A stretch of 64,000 nt of DNA from an uncultured Desulfobacteraceae bacterium (GTDB taxonomy: Bacteria; Desulfobacterota; Desulfobacteria; Desulfobacterales; Desulfatirhabdiaceae), in NCBI GenBank assembly GCA_903953895.1, contig CAJBLH010000017.1:1-64000 (forward strand), read 5' to 3'. Shown here piece after piece: positions 3,409 through 14,806 of the stretch (position 1 is its first letter; each line of letters begins with the position of its first letter). The notes beneath the pieces are model-generated. The model made no database searches. It saw only the letters and a program-made list of their open reading frames with translations, and had not been told where the DNA came from. A program made the translations under genes and the position numbers.

Positions 3409-3708
<300 letters not shown>

Positions 3709-5198: not shown

Positions 5199-5417
5199 AT
5201 GCGAACTCTTTCTGCCCATTCACCGCATTTAAGCAATCTTCAGATGGAGTTGTTAAAGCTTTATTCAACAAATGTTCAGGAAAGCGATCTGATGGAAATC
5301 AAAAAGATATTGGGATCGTATTTTGCCAATAAGGCGATAAAAGAGGCAGACGCCTGCTGGGATGAAAACAATCTGAGTAATGATGTAATGGACAACTGGC
5401 TGGAAAGCCATGAATAA
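5199..5417 (+). CDS. Small antitoxin-like protein paired with a broken PIN toxin
   Basis: A 72-residue protein with NLQMELLKLYSTNVQESDLM, a helical body (IKKILGSYFANKAIKEADACW) and an acidic C-terminus. This layout is common for the partner of TIGR00305-type PIN toxins. AGGGGG lies 7 nt before the ATG. It overlaps the downstream PIN fragment by 8 bp, the usual antitoxin-toxin arrangement. It appears intact while its toxin is not, so it may persist as an orphan. Confidence 0.65.
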   Translation: MRTLSAHSPHLSNLQMELLKLYSTNVQESDLMEIKKILGSYFANKAIKEADACWDENNLSNDVMDNWLESHE

Positions 5418-5744
5418 TATTAAAATTGTACTCGATACCAACGTGCTGCTGGTCTCAATCTCTTCAAGATCAAAGTATCATTGGATTTTTCAGGAATTGC
5501 TTTCCGGATCGTTTGTGCTTGTGATAACCACTGAAATATTGCTTGAGTATGAAGAAATTCTTAAACGGAGGTTCAACATCGCTGTTGCTGAAAATGTTAT
5601 CAGAGCCCTGCTTCAATTGCCCAATGTGATACATCAACATTCGATGTACTCAGACAGGTTGATTATCCACCGGTCGAAGTTGTATCAATTGATGTGTTTA
5701 AATTGCTGATACGCGGGTTGCTGGATATCCCTATCGTCAGTTAG
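5410..5744 (+). pseudogene. PIN-domain toxin with internal deletion and frameshift
   Basis: The first about 80 codons encode a normal PIN start (KIVLDTNVLLVSISSRS, with the Mg-binding Asp) and ITTEILLEYEEIL, then LLQLPNVI. The conserved centre, which normally holds the remaining acidic residues, is missing. From 5661 a different frame reads DYPPVEVVSIDVFKLL, which is the expected C-terminus of TIGR00305 PIN toxins. A deletion of roughly 40-50 codons that also shifted the frame explains both pieces. The main frame ends at 5709. Nuclease activity is not expected. Confidence 0.75.
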
Positions 5745-5789: not shown

Positions 5790-5906
5790 TTTGTTGTGAC
5801 CTCCAACAAATCCATCATGAATGTGTTTGAAGAAAGCAGACAAACGGATTATCATGATATCATCACATTCAGCCAAGAACGGTTTCGGAACTCTCGTTTC
5901 TGTTAA
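5790..5906 (+). pseudogene. Vestige of a GNAT acetyltransferase C-terminus
   Basis: Read in the frame starting 5790, the sequence gives FVVTSNKSIMNVFEES and then ITFSQE before a stop at 5904. This parallels VLTSNKSMMKVFEKGG...TIAFSQE at the end of the CoA-transferase-GNAT gene (about 3270-3390). The nucleotide match is clearest at GTGACCTCCAACAAATCCAT versus ACTGACTTCCAATAAATCCA. It is a relic of a related gene, and its right edge marks where the truncated operon gene begins. Confidence 0.55.
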
Positions 5907-8405
5907 ACATTCCTTGACCCATAGCCCCTGCACCATCGACCAGTTGTGGCAAGATCATGCTGCCGTGTGGCAGCAACTGGGTTGGTGTCCGTCTCAGGTC
6001 AAACTCTGGGTCGGGTGTTTGCAAGATATTCATATCGAAACATCCGCATCCGGCGAGAAAACCTATCGGCTGCCCGGTAACCAGAATTCGGACAACTGGT
6101 TCGGATTCGGTCTGTATAAAGCTCTGATGCCGCTGGCTACCCGGCGATTCGATGGCTCCATCCAGAGCCGGATTGCCGAGCAGACCCTACGCCGTCTGGA
6201 ACCGATGGGGTTCGATGCCGATGTGCTGGCCGACCGGCTGGAGATTGCCCAGACCCACAGCGACGAATCGCTGTATGAAGACCCGACCCTGGTAACCGAT
6301 CTTCTTCAGAAAGCATACGCCTATTTGCAGGAATTCGGAATTCAGTATGTGCTCGTGGTTCTGGACGAACTGGAAACCGTTGCCGAAACCGCCACCTTCG
6401 GGCTGGAGCTCGATGACACCAAACGGCTGGACGGACAGGCCATCCGTCTGATCGGAAAAGCCATCAAGGAAGAAGACCCCCGGCGTAAACTGCCATGGCT
6501 GCGCTATGTGGCGTTGTGCTCCCCGCTTCTGGGACAGGAATTGCGGGAAATTCAATCCGTAGCCCGTCGATTCGAGCCATCGATGTGGAAGCCGTCGCTG
6601 CCATTCTCCAGCGGAACAGTCTTCCCGGCAAATTTCTTTCGATGGGATATTCGGCCGATGAACAGGCCGGGCTTTTTTCCGATCCGGCCAATCCGCAATT
6701 GTCCCAGGCACAAGTGCCCGTTTTTCTGGCCCGTATCGCCACACCGTGCCGGATGCACGAATGGACGTTGGACAAAGCCAGACAAGATTGGTACTGGGGC
6801 TATATCACCTTGGGATCCGGGTTGACGGCCAAATCCGTCTTTGACGACTGGATGTGGTGGTGCGGAGAACTGCATCTGCTCAAGCTGGCGAATCCACACG
6901 CTGCACAGGCAACCTGGATATCCGCAACCCGGGCGGAATTCGAGAATGCCATTACAGAAGCACGGAACTGGTTTGACGGAGCGGCACAGGACGGCTATCG
7001 TAACACCGTGGGAAAACTGGCACGGGTGTTTGGGGATGACCGGGTTCCGGGGCTGTTTGCACCATTGGATAGAATGCCCATCGGCACCGAAACGGTCGAG
7101 GCCGATGAAAGATTGACGACAGCCCGCCTGTTGTACGATCTGTTGAAAGCAGCGGAAGAATTCCTGGCGGCTGAGACATCGACTTCTGTATTCCTGCCCC
7201 ACCTGCCGGATTTGTTGAAAAAACGATCCGACATTCTGAAAAACGTCATATCTGTTCGGCCCGTGCCGCCGCCTGTCGTGTCGTTGAGCAATATCCATAC
7301 ACTTCGTCTGGATGATAAATCCCGGCCATTGTATGTCCGCATCGAACAGGCACGGCTTTTTGCCGAATATGTGGAAGCCGGGGCTCAAACGATCATTCAG
7401 CGGGTGATAGAGCTGATTGCCGATATCGATACGGATTGCGCCGGTTTGACCCATTTTCCCAGAAACCTGTTTACATTGTCTCTGCAAACCATCGTCAACA
7501 TCCTGGAGGGTGCGCTTCAACAGGGTGTAAACCCCAGCATGACGAGTACGACGGAAGGTACGGCCAGCTCGGAAACCCTTCTGCATTATCTTCGCTCGCT
7601 GCAACTGGACAAGACGGCAGAAAGGCTTCGCCTTCTGGCCGGGGAGGCCGGTGTGAATATAGACAACCAGACCCGGCAGCCGTTTTCTGAGGTCTCGGGC
7701 CATATATCGAGTGCCTACCGGTCTGCAAAAGAACTCTTTGTCCGTGCATCGGATCATCTGAATCGATTGAAGCGCCGATGCGGAGAAATCTATCGGATTC
7801 TGGATCCGTTACCGAACGATTATCCAGGCTCCGATCATTGCCAGGAGGCGATCCGGTTTCAACAACAGCTTATTCACATTGAAGATGCCTTTGAAGATTT
7901 GTCTGAAACCGCCAATCAGGAAAGGGAACGATTTCGTGAATCGGCCAGGAAAGGACAATTTCAAGCCATTCGGGATGTGCCGAATCGATTGATGAATCCC
8001 ATTCAATCTCAACTCCATCCCATTGGCGGTTCCATCCAGAAAATTGAAAACACCATCCGGAACTATCGCGACCAAAAGCTTATGGCATTAAACGATTTAT
8101 TGTCTTACGCGTTCGTGCCGCTGTTTCGGGCCTGCCAAAAAACGATTCCACAACATCTCCGTATCGAAGACATCGAAACACTCAGTTTGCATGACCTTCA
8201 GGTGCAACTGGATGGCATGATCATGCAATGGCGACAAATGGCCGCCGAGTCGCTGATAGACACTGGTTTGAATGTGGATGGCTGGATCGATCTGGCCGGT
8301 GCCATCACCCGTGGCAATATCCCGGCAATCGAGCCCGGTATTCAACAAAATCTGATCGATAGAGGCATTCTGAAAATGCGGCTGTATTTTGGAGAACAGG
8401 GATGA
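5821..8405 (+). pseudogene. Large P-loop-type protein, first gene of the HerA-kinase operon; 5'-truncated and frameshifted
   Basis: Two overlapping frames form one protein of about 830 residues. Frame one (to about 6575) includes YVLVVLDELETV, a Walker B-like hhhhDE motif. Frame three (about 6575-8405) continues with IDVEAVAAILQRNSLPGKF and a long helical region. The shift from codon phase 1 to 0 near 6570-6585 equals a one-base deletion. There is no slippery heptamer, so programmed frameshifting is unlikely. No Walker A is visible and the first about 30 codons overlap the GNAT relic, so the 5' end is lost. The size and helical tail recall BrxC/PglY-like ATPases, but I cannot confirm the family. 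Its stop overlaps the next start (ATGA). Confidence 0.65.
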
Positions 8406-9241
8406 AGATTTTTCTGACTTCGGAACTGCATGCCCACCGCCGAGGCCGTTTTTTAGCCGCCTTGTTGGATGCCGAATCGTCGTCGGACGGAAATCTGCCG
8501 GATACCGGATACCTGTTGATGATCGGTGAGCATTTTCAACAGTCGGAACGGGCCGAGGCATATCTTTCCTGGATCAAAGCCCCCCGCCGGGTAATGTTGA
8601 CGCTGCCGCCGTATCAGGAAGGACCGATAAACGATGCTTTGAACTGGAGAATCGGTTATACACGGAATGTACCCGTTTCATTGCACCCGGATAGTTTATC
8701 GGCAATGGTTCAAACCGAAGTCATCTATCGCATCGATGGAAATGACGGAGACAGCGACATGCTTTGTGATCATGGCTGGGCCGATCAAACCAGCCATACC
8801 CGTTACTGGAAAGTGCATGCCAACAGCGGCGTCATGGCTGCCACCATGCTGCCGTTATGGTCCATCAGCCTCATCAACAGCGGAGCGTACGTGAAACAGT
8901 GGCTGTCATGGTTTATGGAACAGTCGGGCAAGGTTTGTGCACCCGATGAAAACGACCGACGGGATGAAGACAAGATTGCCCTGATGCCAAACGATTACAC
9001 GATGATGGTATGTTGTTATGGATGGAAGGTTTCAACGGAAGCGGAACTGAAACATAAATTAGACCAAAGCACCATACCGATCCTCTCCCTGACAGACTTC
9101 GATTTGCCAGACAATTTTGGCCGACTGAGGCGATTCGGCTTGCTGAACGATACCGGCCTGACCCCCCGAGGGCTGGAAATATTGAAAACATCGCCATATT
9201 GGGGCTATGCCGGGCAGTTAAGGAAAATGGGGATGCCATGA
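8402..9241 (+). CDS. Conserved-operon protein of unknown function
   Basis: A 279-residue soluble protein that I do not recognise. The N-terminus (MKIFLTSELHAHRRGRFLAA, then TGYLLMIGEHFQQSERAEAYL) looks like an alpha/beta fold. The last about 60 residues (LPDNFGRLRRFGLLNDTGLT followed by PRGLEILK) resemble a winged-helix DNA-binding or dimerisation segment. No catalytic motif is evident. The start codon overlaps the previous stop and the stop overlaps the next start (ATGA both times), so it is translationally coupled within the six-gene operon and probably part of the same complex. Confidence 0.75.
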   Translation: MKIFLTSELHAHRRGRFLAALLDAESSSDGNLPDTGYLLMIGEHFQQSERAEAYLSWIKAPRRVMLTLPPYQEGPINDALNWRIGYTRNVPVSLHPDSLSAMVQTEVIYRIDGNDGDSDMLCDHGWADQTSHTRYWKVHANSGVMAATMLPLWSISLINSGAYVKQWLSWFMEQSGKVCAPDENDRRDEDKIALMPNDYTMMVCCYGWKVSTEAELKHKLDQSTIPILSLTDFDLPDNFGRLRRFGLLNDTGLTPRGLEILKTSPYWGYAGQLRKMGMP

Positions 9242-10380
9242 AAACGAACAGTCTGGCCCAGTCTCTGGCAATAGACAGTCAGTTGTGCATGCCCGGAAGC
9301 GCCGGACGGTTGCTGAAGCAGATTCGGGATATCGAGCAGATAGCACCGGCCTTTCGGGATGCCGGTCTGGTCAAAGCCGTCCGCAAACAGACTTCGGTCA
9401 ATCTGACGGTATCCGGGATTGCCAGCCGTTCCTGCATCAAAAAAGCGCTGGGCGGATTTCTGTTCGCATCGGCCGCGGTGCGAACAGATCTGTTGATTCA
9501 GAACAACAAAATCAGCACGGTCGGAACCGATTCCGTATCGGAGCTGGACGATATCGACTTCGAGGCCCAGCGAAAACGACTCGATCTTGTGGAAATGCGC
9601 CACTGTTATGCACTGGTCGAACGAACGCTGAACCAGGAGACGCAAAGCCATCTGATACTCATCGACACCCCGTTGTTTATCGATCGGGATATGGTTCCTC
9701 TGAAACGGAATATCCGACACTGGAACGAATATCGAAAAACGACGGAGGCCATCGCGTTGTTCTGGACCCGACACAGACAAAAGCTCTTCCCATGGAATCC
9801 CAACGGCCCGATACTGATCAGCATCCTGGCGGAGCGGTTCAGTGCGGTTGTCAGTATTGCCAGGCAGGATCTGCGCACCGCGGAAGGACGAAAATATCTG
9901 CTGATATCGGATGGCTTTTCGGCCGATTCGGCGGAAAGACTCGACCATCTCGACGACCGGCTTACAGGAATTGGCGATACACGCTTTATCAGCGGGATTT
10001 TGGGCGGTTTCAGCCGGACCATCGCCTTCCGAATGGTGGAACACATTTCACGCATGGAACCGGCCAAAGAAGTGTCCTATGGAATGATCGGTTTTCACTT
10101 CCGAAGCAGTCCGGGCGGGCAGATTCAAATGGCCCAACTGGCGGGTGAAGAATCGGACTGGAACACGGAATTGCTGGATACCGTAGCCTGGTATCTGATG
10201 ATTCTCGATTTGCAGAGTCACCGAAAAGCCATGCCGTTACCTCAGTTGCTGAGCAGGCAACAGCTTGCCATTCTTGAAAAATTCACGGAATATTACCGGC
10301 AGGGGCTCAACGATACCCTGCGAAAAAATGAAATTGAAAGCACATGGCTGTTCGGTCTGGACGAGGATTTCGATTCATGA
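9238..10380 (+). CDS. NurA-like protein paired with HerA
   Basis: A 380-residue protein. The segment LILIDTPLFIDRD (about residues 139-151, Asp143) resembles the central aspartate strand of NurA 5'-3' nucleases. The C-terminal region (about residues 325-350, MPLPQLLSRQQLAILEKF) resembles their closing helix pattern. The first NurA acidic motif (DGS) appears to read VSG near residue 58-60, so catalytic competence is doubtful. The best support is position: it directly precedes, and overlaps by ATGA, the HerA-like gene, the classic NurA-HerA order. The ATG at 9238 was chosen over 9199 because it overlaps the upstream stop. Confidence 0.55.
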   Translation: MKTNSLAQSLAIDSQLCMPGSAGRLLKQIRDIEQIAPAFRDAGLVKAVRKQTSVNLTVSGIASRSCIKKALGGFLFASAAVRTDLLIQNNKISTVGTDSVSELDDIDFEAQRKRLDLVEMRHCYALVERTLNQETQSHLILIDTPLFIDRDMVPLKRNIRHWNEYRKTTEAIALFWTRHRQKLFPWNPNGPILISILAERFSAVVSIARQDLRTAEGRKYLLISDGFSADSAERLDHLDDRLTGIGDTRFISGILGGFSRTIAFRMVEHISRMEPAKEVSYGMIGFHFRSSPGGQIQMAQLAGEESDWNTELLDTVAWYLMILDLQSHRKAMPLPQLLSRQQLAILEKFTEYYRQGLNDTLRKNEIESTWLFGLDEDFDS

Positions 10381-12062
10381 AACACAAGGTGCTGGGAAAA
10401 CTGGTGGGAAATACCGGAGACGCCGCACGGCTGACGATGGTGGTACAGGATTCTTTTTCGGTGAGACGGGGCGAATTTGTCCGGATCATGCATCAGGAAC
10501 GCATCGACGAAGCGGTTGTGTCGATTCTGGGGCGTGTTACCCGAATTCATCGGTCCAACATGCTGTTCAATGCCGGTTTCGGCGATGGCGTCACCGATCT
10601 GGAACTGTTGCCGGGTGCGCACGTGACGGGCGAGAATATGTTCGCCAACCTGGAGCTGATCGGATACCGAGACCCCATATCCCGGCAGATTAAAATTCCC
10701 CGCCGTCCCCTGGATCCGGGTGTCGCCGTCGAAACGGTCGATTTTCAATTTCTGAGCGATTTTTATGAATTCAACGAATTCACCAGCCTGCATATAGGCA
10801 ATCTGGTCGGGTATGAGCGCGGAGAAAACACGGTTCCGATCTTTCTGGATATCAACAAGCTGGTGACAGAACATGTCGTGGTGCTGGCCATGACTGGTTC
10901 CGGAAAATCCTATACGATCGGACGAATCATCGAACGACTGGTTGCCTTGAACAATGGAACGGTGGTGGTGTTCGATCCCCATGGCGAATACGGCAAAGCA
11001 ATGGCCAAAGGACAGCTCAATTTTTCCGCCGATAAAAATGGATTCGATGATTTGCGGGATCGGGAGACTCTGCCCAAAATCCAGATGATGTTTGAACGGC
11101 TCCAGAAAGTCGGCGCGGGGATTCAGGTATATACCCCCCAAAACGAAACGTTCAAATTCAAGTATGCCGGCCATAATATGATGTTGGCGCTTCAGTTCGA
11201 TCACTTCGAAATGGATGATGTGGCGGAAATTCTTCCCGGTTTGACAGAACCCCAGCAACGGGTGCTGGATGTGGCCATGCGCTACTGGCGGACGGCAGAC
11301 AAAGCGGAACCTCGGGATATCAACCGGCTGCGGCATCTGTTGGGCGACGGCATCGATGAATTACGCAACTGGGACGATCTGTCGGATGCGGAATCCAGAG
11401 CCCTCAATGGCCGGAGTGCGGCCGTGGCATCCATGAAACTGTCCCGCGTGCTGAATGAAGCACAAAGCTTTTATTCCGCCACCATGGAAGCACCGACGGA
11501 TATCTATCTAATGATCGGCCGACCTTCCAACATGCAGGGAAGACTGGTGATCATCGATCTGCAGGGGTTGAGCGATACGGCCAAACAGGTAGTCTGCGCC
11601 CTGATTTCCAGCGAAATTCTGCGGGCCGCTTCCAGCAAGACCGATTTCCTGAGACCTTGTTTTCTGGTGTATGAAGAAGGTCATAGTTTTGCACCGGCCG
11701 GTGGAAAGGCCGTCAGTCACCGCATCATCAAAAAGATTGCAGGGGAAGGCCGAAAATTCGGGGTCGGCTTTGCCATTGTCAGTCAGCGTCCGTCCAAGCT
11801 GGATCCGGATGTGACTTCCCAGTGCAACACATTGATCACGATGCGGCTGAAAAATCCCGACGATCAGCGGTTCATTGCCAAAGCCTCGGATATGGTCAGC
11901 CAGGCGGATCTGGATGAATTACCTAGTCTTTCCACCGGAGAGGCACTGGTCTGCGGCCGATCCATTCCGGCGCCATTGCTGGTCAAAGTCGGGGCCAAAG
12001 CCCTGATTCACGGTGGAGAGTCACCCGATGTCCTGCGCGCCTGGGGAACATTCAATGGCTGA
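10377..12062 (+). CDS. HerA-like hexameric ATPase/DNA translocase
   Basis: A 561-residue protein. Residues about 1-130 form a HAS-barrel-like N-terminal domain (GKLVGNTGDAARLTMVVQDS). An FtsK/HerA-type RecA core follows, with Walker A MTGSGKSYTIGRI (about residue 170-182), VVVFDPHGEYGKA, Walker B-like CFLVYEEGH (about 428) and VSQRPSKLDPDVTSQCNT, the sensor region typical of HerA. HerA proteins form rings that pump DNA for a partner nuclease; here the neighbours are a NurA-like and a PD-(D/E)XK-like protein. Start 10377 overlaps the upstream stop (ATGA), and its end overlaps the next gene by 8 bp. It appears intact. Confidence 0.9.
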   Translation: MKHKVLGKLVGNTGDAARLTMVVQDSFSVRRGEFVRIMHQERIDEAVVSILGRVTRIHRSNMLFNAGFGDGVTDLELLPGAHVTGENMFANLELIGYRDPISRQIKIPRRPLDPGVAVETVDFQFLSDFYEFNEFTSLHIGNLVGYERGENTVPIFLDINKLVTEHVVVLAMTGSGKSYTIGRIIERLVALNNGTVVVFDPHGEYGKAMAKGQLNFSADKNGFDDLRDRETLPKIQMMFERLQKVGAGIQVYTPQNETFKFKYAGHNMMLALQFDHFEMDDVAEILPGLTEPQQRVLDVAMRYWRTADKAEPRDINRLRHLLGDGIDELRNWDDLSDAESRALNGRSAAVASMKLSRVLNEAQSFYSATMEAPTDIYLMIGRPSNMQGRLVIIDLQGLSDTAKQVVCALISSEILRAASSKTDFLRPCFLVYEEGHSFAPAGGKAVSHRIIKKIAGEGRKFGVGFAIVSQRPSKLDPDVTSQCNTLITMRLKNPDDQRFIAKASDMVSQADLDELPSLSTGEALVCGRSIPAPLLVKVGAKALIHGGESPDVLRAWGTFNG

Positions 12063-12633
12063 CCTGTTGGAGCGTATCATATCGGCCATGTCTTCTCTTG
12101 AATTCATCGGCCGGAACTATCCCATGTTGACGGAATGGGGAGTTCTGGACCAGGATGTGCTGATTCATAGCCTGGGATGCAGTGTCTGGAATTTATTGGG
12201 GCATGATCTTGGGTTCATTGCGGTTGCCGAGTGCCCGGCGCCGATGACACACGGTCTGGACATTCGGGCCGATTCGACCTGGTTCTGCCGGATGAAAAGA
12301 AAACCTGTAGTTCTGATCGAATTCGAACGATTTGACGGATCCAGACAGGGGCAGCAGAAACTGGATGAAAAAATCCGTAATCTGCTGGAGGCGGCCATGA
12401 GATGGGAAAACAGCCCGTCGGTGTTGATTCTCTCTGCATGGAGCAAGGGCGTGGTTTCAGCTCCCGATCTTCACGGTCTTAAAGAACGCTGCCGCGATGG
12501 ATTCAGGACATCCACAGGCGTCAATGTGGTTTTCGGGAAGAACACCACACTGTTGTTCAACCGGTTCATTTTTGAAATTCAGTCGGACAGAAGTCTGATA
12601 ATCACTCAAACCCGGAGCATGAGGCTTTTGTGA
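12055..12633 (+). CDS. PD-(D/E)XK-nuclease-like operon protein
   Basis: A 192-residue protein. The stretch DIRADSTWFCRM...PVVLIEFERFDGSRQGQQKL places an Asp (73) about 16 residues before an E-x-E (89-91) on a predicted beta strand and is followed by a helix rich in K and E. This is the layout of PD-(D/E)XK restriction-type nucleases, with Glu in place of the usual Lys. The rest looks like a small alpha/beta domain. The ATG at 12055 overlaps the end of the HerA gene. Nuclease activity is inference from motif and context; it could equally be a non-catalytic member. Confidence 0.5.
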   Translation: MADLLERIISAMSSLEFIGRNYPMLTEWGVLDQDVLIHSLGCSVWNLLGHDLGFIAVAECPAPMTHGLDIRADSTWFCRMKRKPVVLIEFERFDGSRQGQQKLDEKIRNLLEAAMRWENSPSVLILSAWSKGVVSAPDLHGLKERCRDGFRTSTGVNVVFGKNTTLLFNRFIFEIQSDRSLIITQTRSMRLL

Positions 12634-14105
12634 ACATCAAATCCGCACATTTTTTGCCTGGAACGAACAAGCGACTGGGTGACAAATACCTCTTGATCGA
12701 GTGCCTGGGGGATGGCAGTCATGGCTGGGTCTGGCGGGCGGAGCGATTGTCTGACGGAACGGTCGTAGCCGTAAAAATCCCCAAAGATCCCACCAAAGAG
12801 GATCGGTTGTTGTCGGAAGGCCGGGAACTGCTAAACGTGGAACGGCACCCCAACATCGTTCACATCACCGATATGGGCAGAATTCCACCGGCCAATGAAT
12901 GGTTTTTCATCGAGATGGAATACTTTCCCAGTCAAAGTCTGGCTCAGAAACTGGAGCAGCGGGCTCAACAATTCGGCAACACGTTCGAACGGCTTTTCCA
13001 TATTTACGAGCAGGTGATTGCAGCGGTCGATTTTCTTTCGGAATTACCGGTGCCGATTTCCCATGGAGATATCAAACCGCACAACATTCTGATCGGCGAA
13101 AAAGATCAGGTAAAACTGACGGATTTCGGTAGTTCCGCCCTGCCCGAGGAAATCTATGTCCGGATGCGCGAGAATGGGGGGACGGTGTTGTATGCGGCAC
13201 CGGAATTCTCGGATAGCATCCGTCGGAAAGGCAGCTTCGAAAATTTGCTCCGAGGCGATATCTACAGTATGGGCGTGTTGTTGTATCAACTGATTACCGG
13301 ACAGCTTCCCCATGACACGCCATCTCAGGTTCGACGGCATGCCCCCTTCAAAAAACCCGGCGAGATCAACAGGAATATCCATCCGGAACTCGAGCAGGTC
13401 ATTCTGCGGTGTTTGAAAAAAAATCCATTGGAGCGATATCAGACTGTACCGGATTTACGAAGTGCCTTCACCTCGGCGCGGCACCAACAATTCCGAATGC
13501 CCAGCTATTCCATTCCTGCCGTTCCCGCTGATTCCGCCGGTGATTGGTCAACGGCTGTCATGACAGCGCTGGCTGATAAAAAATATACGACAGCCGCAAG
13601 AATCGCCGAGAAGGAATATGCTCGATCTTGCGACAGCTCCGCCTTGCTTCAACAATTGTACGGGTTGTATCGAGCCAATCACCTGTTTGATTTTGAAAAA
13701 GTGTTCGATCAGGAATATGAAAAAATTCCTCAAGATGGAGATGATGCCAAGTCCATCCGTATTCTAGCGATCAAAGCATTTCTATGTCTTCGCAACACAG
13801 ATCGCGCCAGATCGCTGGTCGCGCAATCCACCGCACTGGATGGCGAGACGATAGAACTGAATTTCCTCTCGGCAAATATCCTGGGGCTGGAAGCAAATTT
13901 CGCGGCTGCCAGAGAAATCTTGGAAAAAATCAATAAAGTCTCGCCCTACAAGCCCAAGGTACTGAACCGACTGATCCAGGTATGTGAGCAGATGCGGGAT
14001 TACCGTGCCGCTGCGGGTTATCTGCGTCATGCGTTGCGGGTTGTCAAGGATGCCCCCGATCTCGAAGAAAAACAAAAGCGTTATCAACAACTGGGGCTTT
14101 GGTGA
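12630..14105 (+). CDS. Hanks-type Ser/Thr protein kinase with helical-repeat C-terminus
   Basis: A 491-residue protein with a complete kinase core: glycine loop LGDGSHGWV (about 27-34), VAVK lysine (49), catalytic HGDIKPHN (145-152), DFG (165-167) and an APE motif. A TPR-like helical repeat region follows (about residues 300-490), suggesting protein docking. The arginine before the catalytic Asp is replaced by glycine (HGD), so activation-loop control may differ from classic RD kinases. It starts with GTG overlapping the upstream stop (GTGA), the last gene of the coupled operon. No transmembrane helix is seen. Kinases of this type occur in several defence systems (for example PglW of BREX type 2). 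Confidence 0.9.
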   Translation: MNIKSAHFLPGTNKRLGDKYLLIECLGDGSHGWVWRAERLSDGTVVAVKIPKDPTKEDRLLSEGRELLNVERHPNIVHITDMGRIPPANEWFFIEMEYFPSQSLAQKLEQRAQQFGNTFERLFHIYEQVIAAVDFLSELPVPISHGDIKPHNILIGEKDQVKLTDFGSSALPEEIYVRMRENGGTVLYAAPEFSDSIRRKGSFENLLRGDIYSMGVLLYQLITGQLPHDTPSQVRRHAPFKKPGEINRNIHPELEQVILRCLKKNPLERYQTVPDLRSAFTSARHQQFRMPSYSIPAVPADSAGDWSTAVMTALADKKYTTAARIAEKEYARSCDSSALLQQLYGLYRANHLFDFEKVFDQEYEKIPQDGDDAKSIRILAIKAFLCLRNTDRARSLVAQSTALDGETIELNFLSANILGLEANFAAAREILEKINKVSPYKPKVLNRLIQVCEQMRDYRAAAGYLRHALRVVKDAPDLEEKQKRYQQLGLW

Positions 14106-14113
14106 ATGGGAAA

Positions 14114-14806
14114 TCATTCTTTCATGATGCGGATAATGCGCTCATCCAGACAGGATCGCATGAAAGTATTCATCAGTGCCTGATCGGCCGTTTCATAGAA
14201 AGTCAGCATCAATTGATTGAACTCCAACTGCCGCCTGGCCGGCAGATTGATGGCCGGATATCCATTGTTCAATAGCAGGCCGTTCATCATGAAACGACCC
14301 ATGCGTTTGTTGACGTCGTAGAAAAATTGACATCTCGCCATGGTTAGAAAGATGTGGATGGCCTGATCATAGATGTCTGGTATCCTCGAAGCATTTGTTA
14401 CCATGTCATCGAACAGGTCCGGCAGCCGCGCCGCATCCGGCGGCATGTAATCCGTTCCCGCAATGGTCACCCCCCCGGAGCGAAATCGCCCCCATTCCAG
14501 GGATTCTTCTTTGCCGGCAATGGCATGGAGGCGGCAGGCTTTTTCATTCGTTATGTCGAATCGATCGGTTTCGATCCAGTCGAAGATGGTGCGCCAGGCC
14601 TGCCCCTGATTCACGGCGATCTGCTGATCGGCAATCCGATGCCCCCCGACGGTAATTCCGTCCAAGAGCGTCTGAATCTCCGGCAATGTAAAATTGAGCC
14701 CTTCCAGGGTAACGGCATCCCAAACGAACTCGGGCAGTTGCCGTTTGGCCAGCATGAGTGCTTTGGGCTTGTTGGGTTTCATGAACCAGCGATGGTCTTT
14801 TTTCAT
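14114..14806 (-). CDS. Fic-family protein with Gln at the catalytic His position
   Basis: A 230-residue Fic/DOC-fold protein. The active-site motif H-x-F-x-D/E-G-N-K/G-R-x-x-R reads Q-F-F-Y-D-V-N-K-R-M-G-R; the usual catalytic His is CAA (Gln). AVTLEG near residue 31-36 resembles the inhibitory (S/T)xxxE(G/N) helix of class II Fic proteins but lacks the Ser/Thr. Canonical AMP transfer is therefore unlikely; related sequences with Gln appear to form a subgroup (from memory). It converges on the kinase gene with only 8 bp between them and may be an accessory or regulator of that operon. Confidence 0.8.
   Translation of the reverse strand: MKKDHRWFMKPNKPKALMLAKRQLPEFVWDAVTLEGLNFTLPEIQTLLDGITVGGHRIADQQIAVNQGQAWRTIFDWIETDRFDITNEKACRLHAIAGKEESLEWGRFRSGGVTIAGTDYMPPDAARLPDLFDDMVTNASRIPDIYDQAIHIFLTMARCQFFYDVNKRMGRFMMNGLLLNNGYPAINLPARRQLEFNQLMLTFYETADQALMNTFMRSCLDERIIRIMKE

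Follow-up and report, generated by a model that had tools for sequence, protein, structure and literature searches.

A 64,000-nucleotide stretch of DNA from an uncultured Desulfobacteraceae bacterium (positions 1 to 64,000 of contig CAJBLH010000017.1, assembly GCA_903953895.1; here called the window) carries on its forward strand, between positions 5821 and 14105, the deletion relic of a probably horizontally acquired ten-gene operon, whose genes are designated A to J. Five of these genes, F to J, remain intact open reading frames (ORFs). Gene F (8402..9241, 279 amino acids) is without a known family in Pfam, PADLOC, or NCBIfam. Gene G (9238..10380, ~380 amino acids) encodes a protein that has a NurA fold according to AlphaFold and VIA and lacks the motif I aspartate of NurA, and gene H (10377..12062, 561 amino acids) encodes a HerA-type ATPase (Pfam DUF87, 4.6e-41). 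The conserved motif pattern of the gene I product (12055..12633, 192 amino acids) makes it a candidate PD-(D/E)XK-like protein, and gene J (12630..14105, 491 amino acids) encodes a Hanks-type Ser/Thr kinase with a TPR-like C-terminus (Pfam Pkinase, 1.6e-33). These assignments secure the HerA and the kinase that an earlier note on this DNA, made from the sequence alone (the original prediction), had named, and they agree with its description of F as an orphan; its NurA-like protein holds as a fold, though not as a member of the Pfam family or as a protein with the motif I residue.

Upstream of F lie the remains of A and of a large ATPase, E. The A relic (5821..6081, forward strand) has lost its C-terminal half, matches positions 14-68 of the 138 positions of the A profile (51 bits), and is 42% identical across 60 amino acids to A of an intact locus, L006. 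It runs in frame into a first E relic (6082..6576, same strand), which corresponds to positions 128-292 (E 1.5e-104) of a profile of the intact ATPase built from 27 sequences; a second E relic (6576..8405, same strand) follows in a different frame and corresponds to positions 827-1432 (nucleotides 6576-8399, E 1.8e-183). Only these two portions match the profile, and positions 293-826 are deleted, so that the ORFs at 5821-6825 and 6495-8405 represent the A piece and the E pieces of one ruined gene. Walker B is present in the first E relic and Walker A (~residues 67-73 of intact E) is missing from the window copy. What had been taken for an intact P-loop protein at the head of the cluster is therefore an A relic fused to E pieces. 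The six overlapping genes first described on this strand do show the reported stop-to-start overlaps (E/F, 4 bp; F/G, 4; G/H, 4; H/I, 8; I/J, 4), but the first of them is a pseudogene.

As reconstructed from the sequence, the first deletion ran from within A into E, and the second took the middle of E and shifted the frame. By comparison with the intact loci L006 and L007, the first is estimated to have removed ~5.6 kb, taking hsdM, hsdS, and D together with the last part of A and the part of E that bears Walker A. Neither HsdM nor D was found elsewhere in the genome of the window (rated 100% complete), by a search that for D had no positive control and that for HsdM was of a type that found the protein in 25/25 other genomes. 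The surviving genes F to J appear only mildly relaxed, with a HerA divergence of 0.171 versus 0.118-0.143 for relatives measured against the same reference, a G divergence of 0.339 versus 0.295-0.336, and values for I and J that are not raised; the loss may thus be recent. Without the methylase and with E destroyed, the window copy is most likely inactive.

Organization and distribution of the intact operon

Intact loci were found in two proviral IMG/VR contigs (L006 and L007), whose HerA proteins are 86% and 83% identical to H of the window. When 84,980 species genomes were searched with an alignment of HerA, 44 further loci emerged, a number that is a floor, since the search detects only loci bearing either of two short peptide patterns. 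As read from these sequences, the order of the intact operon is A, an HsdM-type methylase (B), HsdS (C), D, a BrxC/ORC-like ATPase (E), F, the NurA-fold protein (G), HerA (H), I, and the kinase (J). The detected genes occur in this same order in 44/44 genome loci, more than expected by chance, and in both proviral contigs. All of D-J were detected in 41/44 genome loci and C-J in 39/44, most of the remaining loci being truncated by contig ends; the three without a full D-J set (L031, L032, L045) are short contigs. HsdM was present in each of the 25 genomes searched among the 44, gene A lies upstream of HsdM in 23/24 loci tested (the exception being L078), and F was detected beside E or G in 43/44.

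Most junctions are tight, with genes lying within 20 bp of each other at B/C (31/32), E/F (42/43), F/G (43/45), H/I (45/46), and I/J (44/45). The loosest is D/E, which is within 20 bp in 22/43 loci. Ten loci have inserts of >250 bp at the B-C-D-E junctions or broken frames, and two have a broken gene (E in L041, H in L043). Toxin-antitoxin-like pairs, of the PIN type as judged by eye, lie between D and E at L009:3117-3721, L011:3088-3710, and L013:2847-3582. An extra gene of ~357 amino acids occupies the same junction at L044:2717-3790, in an alphaproteobacteria-like branch, and its neighbors L036, L040, and L048 have D-E gaps of similar size. An ORF of ~389 amino acids, with a nuclease-type look by eye, lies between HsdS and D at L050:1296-2465. 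In Psychromonas arctica (L034) the locus is a natural relic, in which C-J are present and HsdM is reduced to its last 122 residues.

The loci span six phyla (Pseudomonadota, Planctomycetota, Acidobacteriota, Verrucomicrobiota, Myxococcota, and Fibrobacterota), although bins may carry a wrong phylum label. The original proposal of an undescribed operon for defense or DNA processing whose genes work as a unit thus passes the check set for it, conserved order in several phyla, but the gene set it described was incomplete. In a tree of G and H (45 rows), the window falls within a supported ten-row set (98/98) made up of seven Pseudomonadota, one Fibrobacter bin, and two unassigned rows including the window itself. 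Nitrosomonas locus L012 is identical in G and H to the viral contig L006, and these two are not independent. In the sample of the window's own phylum, the family was found only in the genome of the window (1/297 genomes with F, 1/395 with the G profile). Transfer is the simplest reading of this spread. Searches for F in plasmids, for G in phages and plasmids, for part of E in plasmids, and for E in phages found nothing, and a HerA search in plasmids found only relatives of <60% identity, the best rows being at 25-31%.

Among ten downstream flank ORFs picked by eye, nine match PADLOC families at 1e-5 or better, namely TmtA (twice), a Septu-like ATPase family, MkoA, ZacB, PDC-M27C/ZacC, DarG, PDC-S02, and NsnA. 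In the window, a PIN-domain toxin-like ORF of 99 amino acids (5410-5709) lies directly upstream of the relic; it covers only the first 74 of 115 PIN_3 positions and so is probably truncated or frameshifted. Just past the kinase gene, in the reverse direction, lies a gene for a Fic-domain protein (14114-14806) with weak PADLOC PDC-S04 and SoFic matches, and a DUF433 antitoxin-like ORF is found at 3415-3708 (2.5e-23).

The operon is also present in Escherichia coli. With the E-J block of Ewingella as query, 255/5426 complete E. coli genomes match, 209 of them over at least 80% of its length; with the A-J operon of E. coli C2 there are 287 matches, and 207/5426 complete genomes (~4%) are covered over at least 80%. 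E. coli W matches the whole A-J query at 99.6%. All ten genes are annotated, and none is flagged as a pseudogene, in KO11FL, a relative derived from strain W. RefSeq names most of the operon proteins in E. coli "hypothetical." A complete operon at 99.6% also occurs in NZ_CM135829.1, named E. coli DH5alpha; because K-12 derivatives are not expected to carry it, the strain name may be wrong. Six E. coli regions were inspected. An integrase gene follows the operon in all six (frameshifted in two), tRNA-Leu is in view in four, and McrB/McrC genes precede the operon in 6/6. A phosphorothioate-dependent (-binding) endonuclease gene precedes it in 5/6, the sixth stretch starting too late. The leuX site is described as defense hotspot 37, and the accessible text lists type I, BREX, Dnd, Dpd, and DISARM systems at it without the ten-gene set (PMC12707154).

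Deletion relics occur in E. coli as well. In one, the lost interval begins at HsdM residue 36 and ends at G residue 21, and the break points have 5 bases in common; in a second it begins at HsdM residue 149 and ends at E residue 1287, and 4 bases are in common. Both retain the downstream block. A third still has A, HsdM, and the first part of HsdS but is missing the rest up to mid-kinase, where an IS1 is located. Among the 60 of 288 matches listed for the A-J query, 43 span 81% or more of the operon and the other 17 no more than 46%, and none shows loss of the methylase only. At a threshold of at least 80%, HsdM is present in 209 genomes and HerA in 249. These counts, together with the 209 for E-J, fit loss of the methylase only together with E, although a single large deletion explains them too, since E lies between the two blocks.

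Component proteins

Components B and C are recognizable as a type I modification pair. B matches PADLOC MTase_I (PDLC03023) over its full length (1530 bits) and Pfam N6_Mtase at 2.2e-22. C matches type I specificity models (Specificity_I, 9.7e-96 for L007), and PGAP labels the E. coli protein restriction endonuclease subunit S. HsdS is the most variable gene, with 25-58% identity in most loci versus at least 78% for HsdM in most close loci, as would be expected for shifting target sites. In contrast to this pair, D, E, F, G, and I are above cut-off in no family of Pfam, NCBIfam, or PADLOC, and sequence searches of the PDB with their profiles gave nothing credible.

Intact E is ~1430 residues in length. 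Walker A is conserved in 41/42 full-length copies (the exception, L043, is short at the start) and Walker B in 42/42. The predicted fold of residues 1-620 (pLDDT 79.8) has BrxC as its best Foldseek matches (9zll, 3.7e-06; 9zdx, 5.8e-06); by VIA, ORC (Z 12.2) and BrxC (Z 11.8) are tied, with the longer alignment to BrxC (340 aligned). No BrxC profile matches E. A match of positions ~1187-1302 to influenza hemagglutinin HA2 (2e-04) was read as a coiled-coil match and set aside.

The AlphaFold model of G (pLDDT 83.7) has a NurA fold, aligning with Sulfolobus NurA (2ygk) at VIA Z 20.7 and a root-mean-square deviation of 3.3 over 282 residues, while the Pfam NurA profile does not match G at E 0.1. 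Endonuclease V and Argonaute have an RNase H-like core in common with G but rank well below NurA and were rejected. A single sub-threshold match of G is to EcoR124_C (E 0.051). G abuts the HerA gene H, in which Walker A is conserved in 44/45 and Walker B in 45/45 sequences. In I, which matches no profile in Pfam or in the PDB sequence search, residues E59, D73, E89-x-E91, and K106 are invariant in 30/30 aligned rows, a pattern compatible with PD-(D/E)XK. The kinase J has HGDxKPxN in 45/46 and DFG in 46/46 full-length members.

Proposed function and alternative explanations

The explanation in which we place moderate confidence is that A-J constitute an unnamed restriction-modification-like antiphage system and that the window holds a horizontally acquired, broken copy of it. 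The data themselves give gene content and order, predicted folds for G and for E residues 1-620, and the deletions of the window copy and of the E. coli relics. The explanation is further favored by the two proviral copies, by the defense-type genes that flank several copies, and by the E. coli setting beside McrBC, the phosphorothioate-dependent endonuclease, and an integrase. From the families of the components we infer roles in methylation, sensing, degradation, and kinase gating, as well as the antiphage role itself. HsdM and HsdS would mark self DNA by adenine methylation, with the variable HsdS recognizing the target sites. Together with A, D, and F, the ATPase E would assemble on DNA and sense foreign DNA that lacks the marks; it would then license the HerA ring (H) together with the NurA-fold protein G and I. 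The H-G-I assembly would then translocate along the unmarked DNA and destroy it, with kinase J gating activation. The weakest points of this scheme are the roles of G, the kinase, D, and F, and G is perhaps no longer a nuclease.

Several observations weigh against this explanation. G has no conserved acidic column in strand 55-69 (31 rows), the site of the NurA motif I aspartate, and a weak hhalign alignment sets the DGS of NurA on A61 of G. According to the part of a study of NurA that is accessible, loss of the corresponding first-strand aspartate (D49 in T. kodakarensis) abolishes activity (PMC12977600). Nuclease activity of G is doubtful because an acidic residue is absent at this essential position; since D97, D103, D104, and D142 are invariant in 31/31 rows, an alternative active site is possible. 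The fold match of E is common to ORC and other AAA+ proteins, the fold predictions cover G and residues 1-620 of E, and the role given to kinase J is a guess. The flank sample was selected, and many other copies lie beside ordinary genes. Finally, the window copy is broken and so gives nothing direct on function.

A more specific mechanism can be offered only tentatively, and we regard it as somewhat doubtful. In it, the operon would be a new class of modification-gated immune machinery, in which a BrxC-like ATPase takes the place of a restriction subunit and reads the type I-style HsdMS marks and a kinase switch fires HerA, with G serving as a noncatalytic clamp or guide and I as the cutter. 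The methylase could be lost only together with E, so that the debris of the G-J motor block would do no harm where it persists, here and among E. coli strains.

The same genes might instead form a divergent branch of MADS (methylation-associated defense system), which is unlikely. Here the N6-adenine methylase, HsdS, Hanks kinase, and HerA-type ATPase common to both systems would be a shared core and the remaining genes replacements, perhaps within the "MADS-like" systems that the MADS paper, which reportedly describes eight genes, is said to mention. Comparison was made by hhalign with two loci found by mad7, the other genes of which were labeled by place and size. B matches the methylase (4e-25), C the HsdS (7e-33), J the kinase protein (2.5e-28), and H the largest protein (3e-05), the match being confined to the HerA part at its C-terminus. 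In PADLOC the best match of J is mad6, and NCBIfam MADS2, MADS5, and MADS6 match B, C, and J. These last scores (115.4, 86.6, and 117 bits) are nevertheless only a sixth to a quarter of the equivalog cut-offs (720, 400, and 460), and generic type I models outscore MADS for B and C in PADLOC. The kinase and HerA, which are separate genes here, sit inside proteins of ~1380 and ~1850 residues in the mad7 loci. None of D, E, F, G, and I could be paired with any of the MADS proteins compared, a comparison that left out mad3 and mad4; neither of these two has a PADLOC match at E 0.1, and mad7 has no PADLOC match in the ten proteins.

It is quite unlikely that the operon serves DNA maintenance or epigenetic control and not immunity. 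Archaeal HerA-NurA complexes process DNA ends, as stated in the accessible part of PMC12977600, and HsdM/HsdS could regulate genes, so that end processing and a regulatory methylase might be combined. The patchy distribution, as in the single genome among 395 of the window's phylum, argues against this, and immunity is the better match for the proviral and integrase-linked copies, HsdS variability, defense neighbors, and the frequency of loss among E. coli strains.

The surviving block, F-J or G-J, of the window and the E. coli relics might also be a working smaller module and not debris. F-J are intact ORFs in the window, the two E. coli relics inspected hold G-J or F-J open after their deletions, and HerA outnumbers HsdM in E. 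coli (249 versus 209 genomes). We nonetheless consider a smaller module quite unlikely, given that H of the window has diverged slightly further than related HerA proteins from a common reference and that no locus was seen with G-J beside another modification module. Assembly errors in what is a 315-contig draft genome are a very improbable cause of the gaps, as two clean internal losses lie in one contig, none of the missing pieces turned up at another place in the genome, and similar losses occur in complete E. coli genomes.

Should the immune explanation be correct, one of the best-studied bacteria harbors a large immune system that has gone unnoticed, and it is present in E. coli W, a harmless laboratory and production strain termed restriction-minus in the accessible text of its genome paper (PMC3032704).

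Comparison with known systems

The original prediction knew of no described system with this gene set, and the libraries searched contain no named system that fits it. MADS, through its methylase, HsdS, kinase, and HerA, and BREX, through the predicted fold of E, come closest. BREX, DISARM, Dnd/Ssp, or another PADLOC-listed system was rejected as the whole answer, as PADLOC families are reached by no proteins other than B, C, H, and J. A full-text literature search, with most subscription journals and all of bioRxiv outside its scope, returned no paper describing the set.

The operon resembles BREX in combining a methylase with a large AAA+ ATPase whose predicted N-terminal fold is BrxC/ORC-like, and differs from it in having separate HsdM and HsdS genes in place of PglX with its built-in target domain, as well as a NurA-fold protein and a kinase with HerA. 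By Pfam and PADLOC profiles, no PglZ, BrxL, or BREX helicase is present in the ten proteins. The absence of PglX and PglZ noted in the original prediction thus stands for PglZ, while for a PglX-like methylase it reflects damage to the window copy, from which the HsdM/HsdS pair, D, part of A, and much of E were deleted. The accessible portion of one source describes BR systems as composed of a DUF499 ATPase, methylase, and helicase and includes BRC systems that, like the present operon, use HerA/FtsK; NurA occurs 0 times in its text (PMC12839542). With type I restriction-modification the operon has both HsdM and HsdS in common, yet no HsdR-type match was found among the ten proteins, and the ATPase, HerA, NurA-fold protein, I, and kinase stand in HsdR's stead. 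Since the MADS cut-offs are missed and neither PglZ nor HsdR was found, the operon is filed here as a putative restriction-modification-like immune type outside MADS, BREX, and type I restriction-modification.

TdpAB acts in phosphorothioate defense. The present operon is like HerA-NurA and TdpAB in that HerA adjoins the NurA-fold G, which aligns with TdpAB chain G (PDB 8wfd) at VIA Z 15.3; it differs in that G is without the motif I aspartate and is set within an operon with a methylase, a BrxC-like ATPase, and a kinase. Two-gene HerA defenses such as Sir2-HerA (Nezha) and DUF4297-HerA likewise pair a HerA ring with an effector partner, according to the available portion of PMC12948488, whereas here there are ten genes with modification and no Sir2 or DUF4297. 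The ten-gene set would thus bring parts of BREX, MADS, type I restriction-modification, and HerA-NurA together in one operon, and it could reveal a logic common to them, consisting of HsdMS marking, BrxC-like sensing, HerA translocation, and kinase control.

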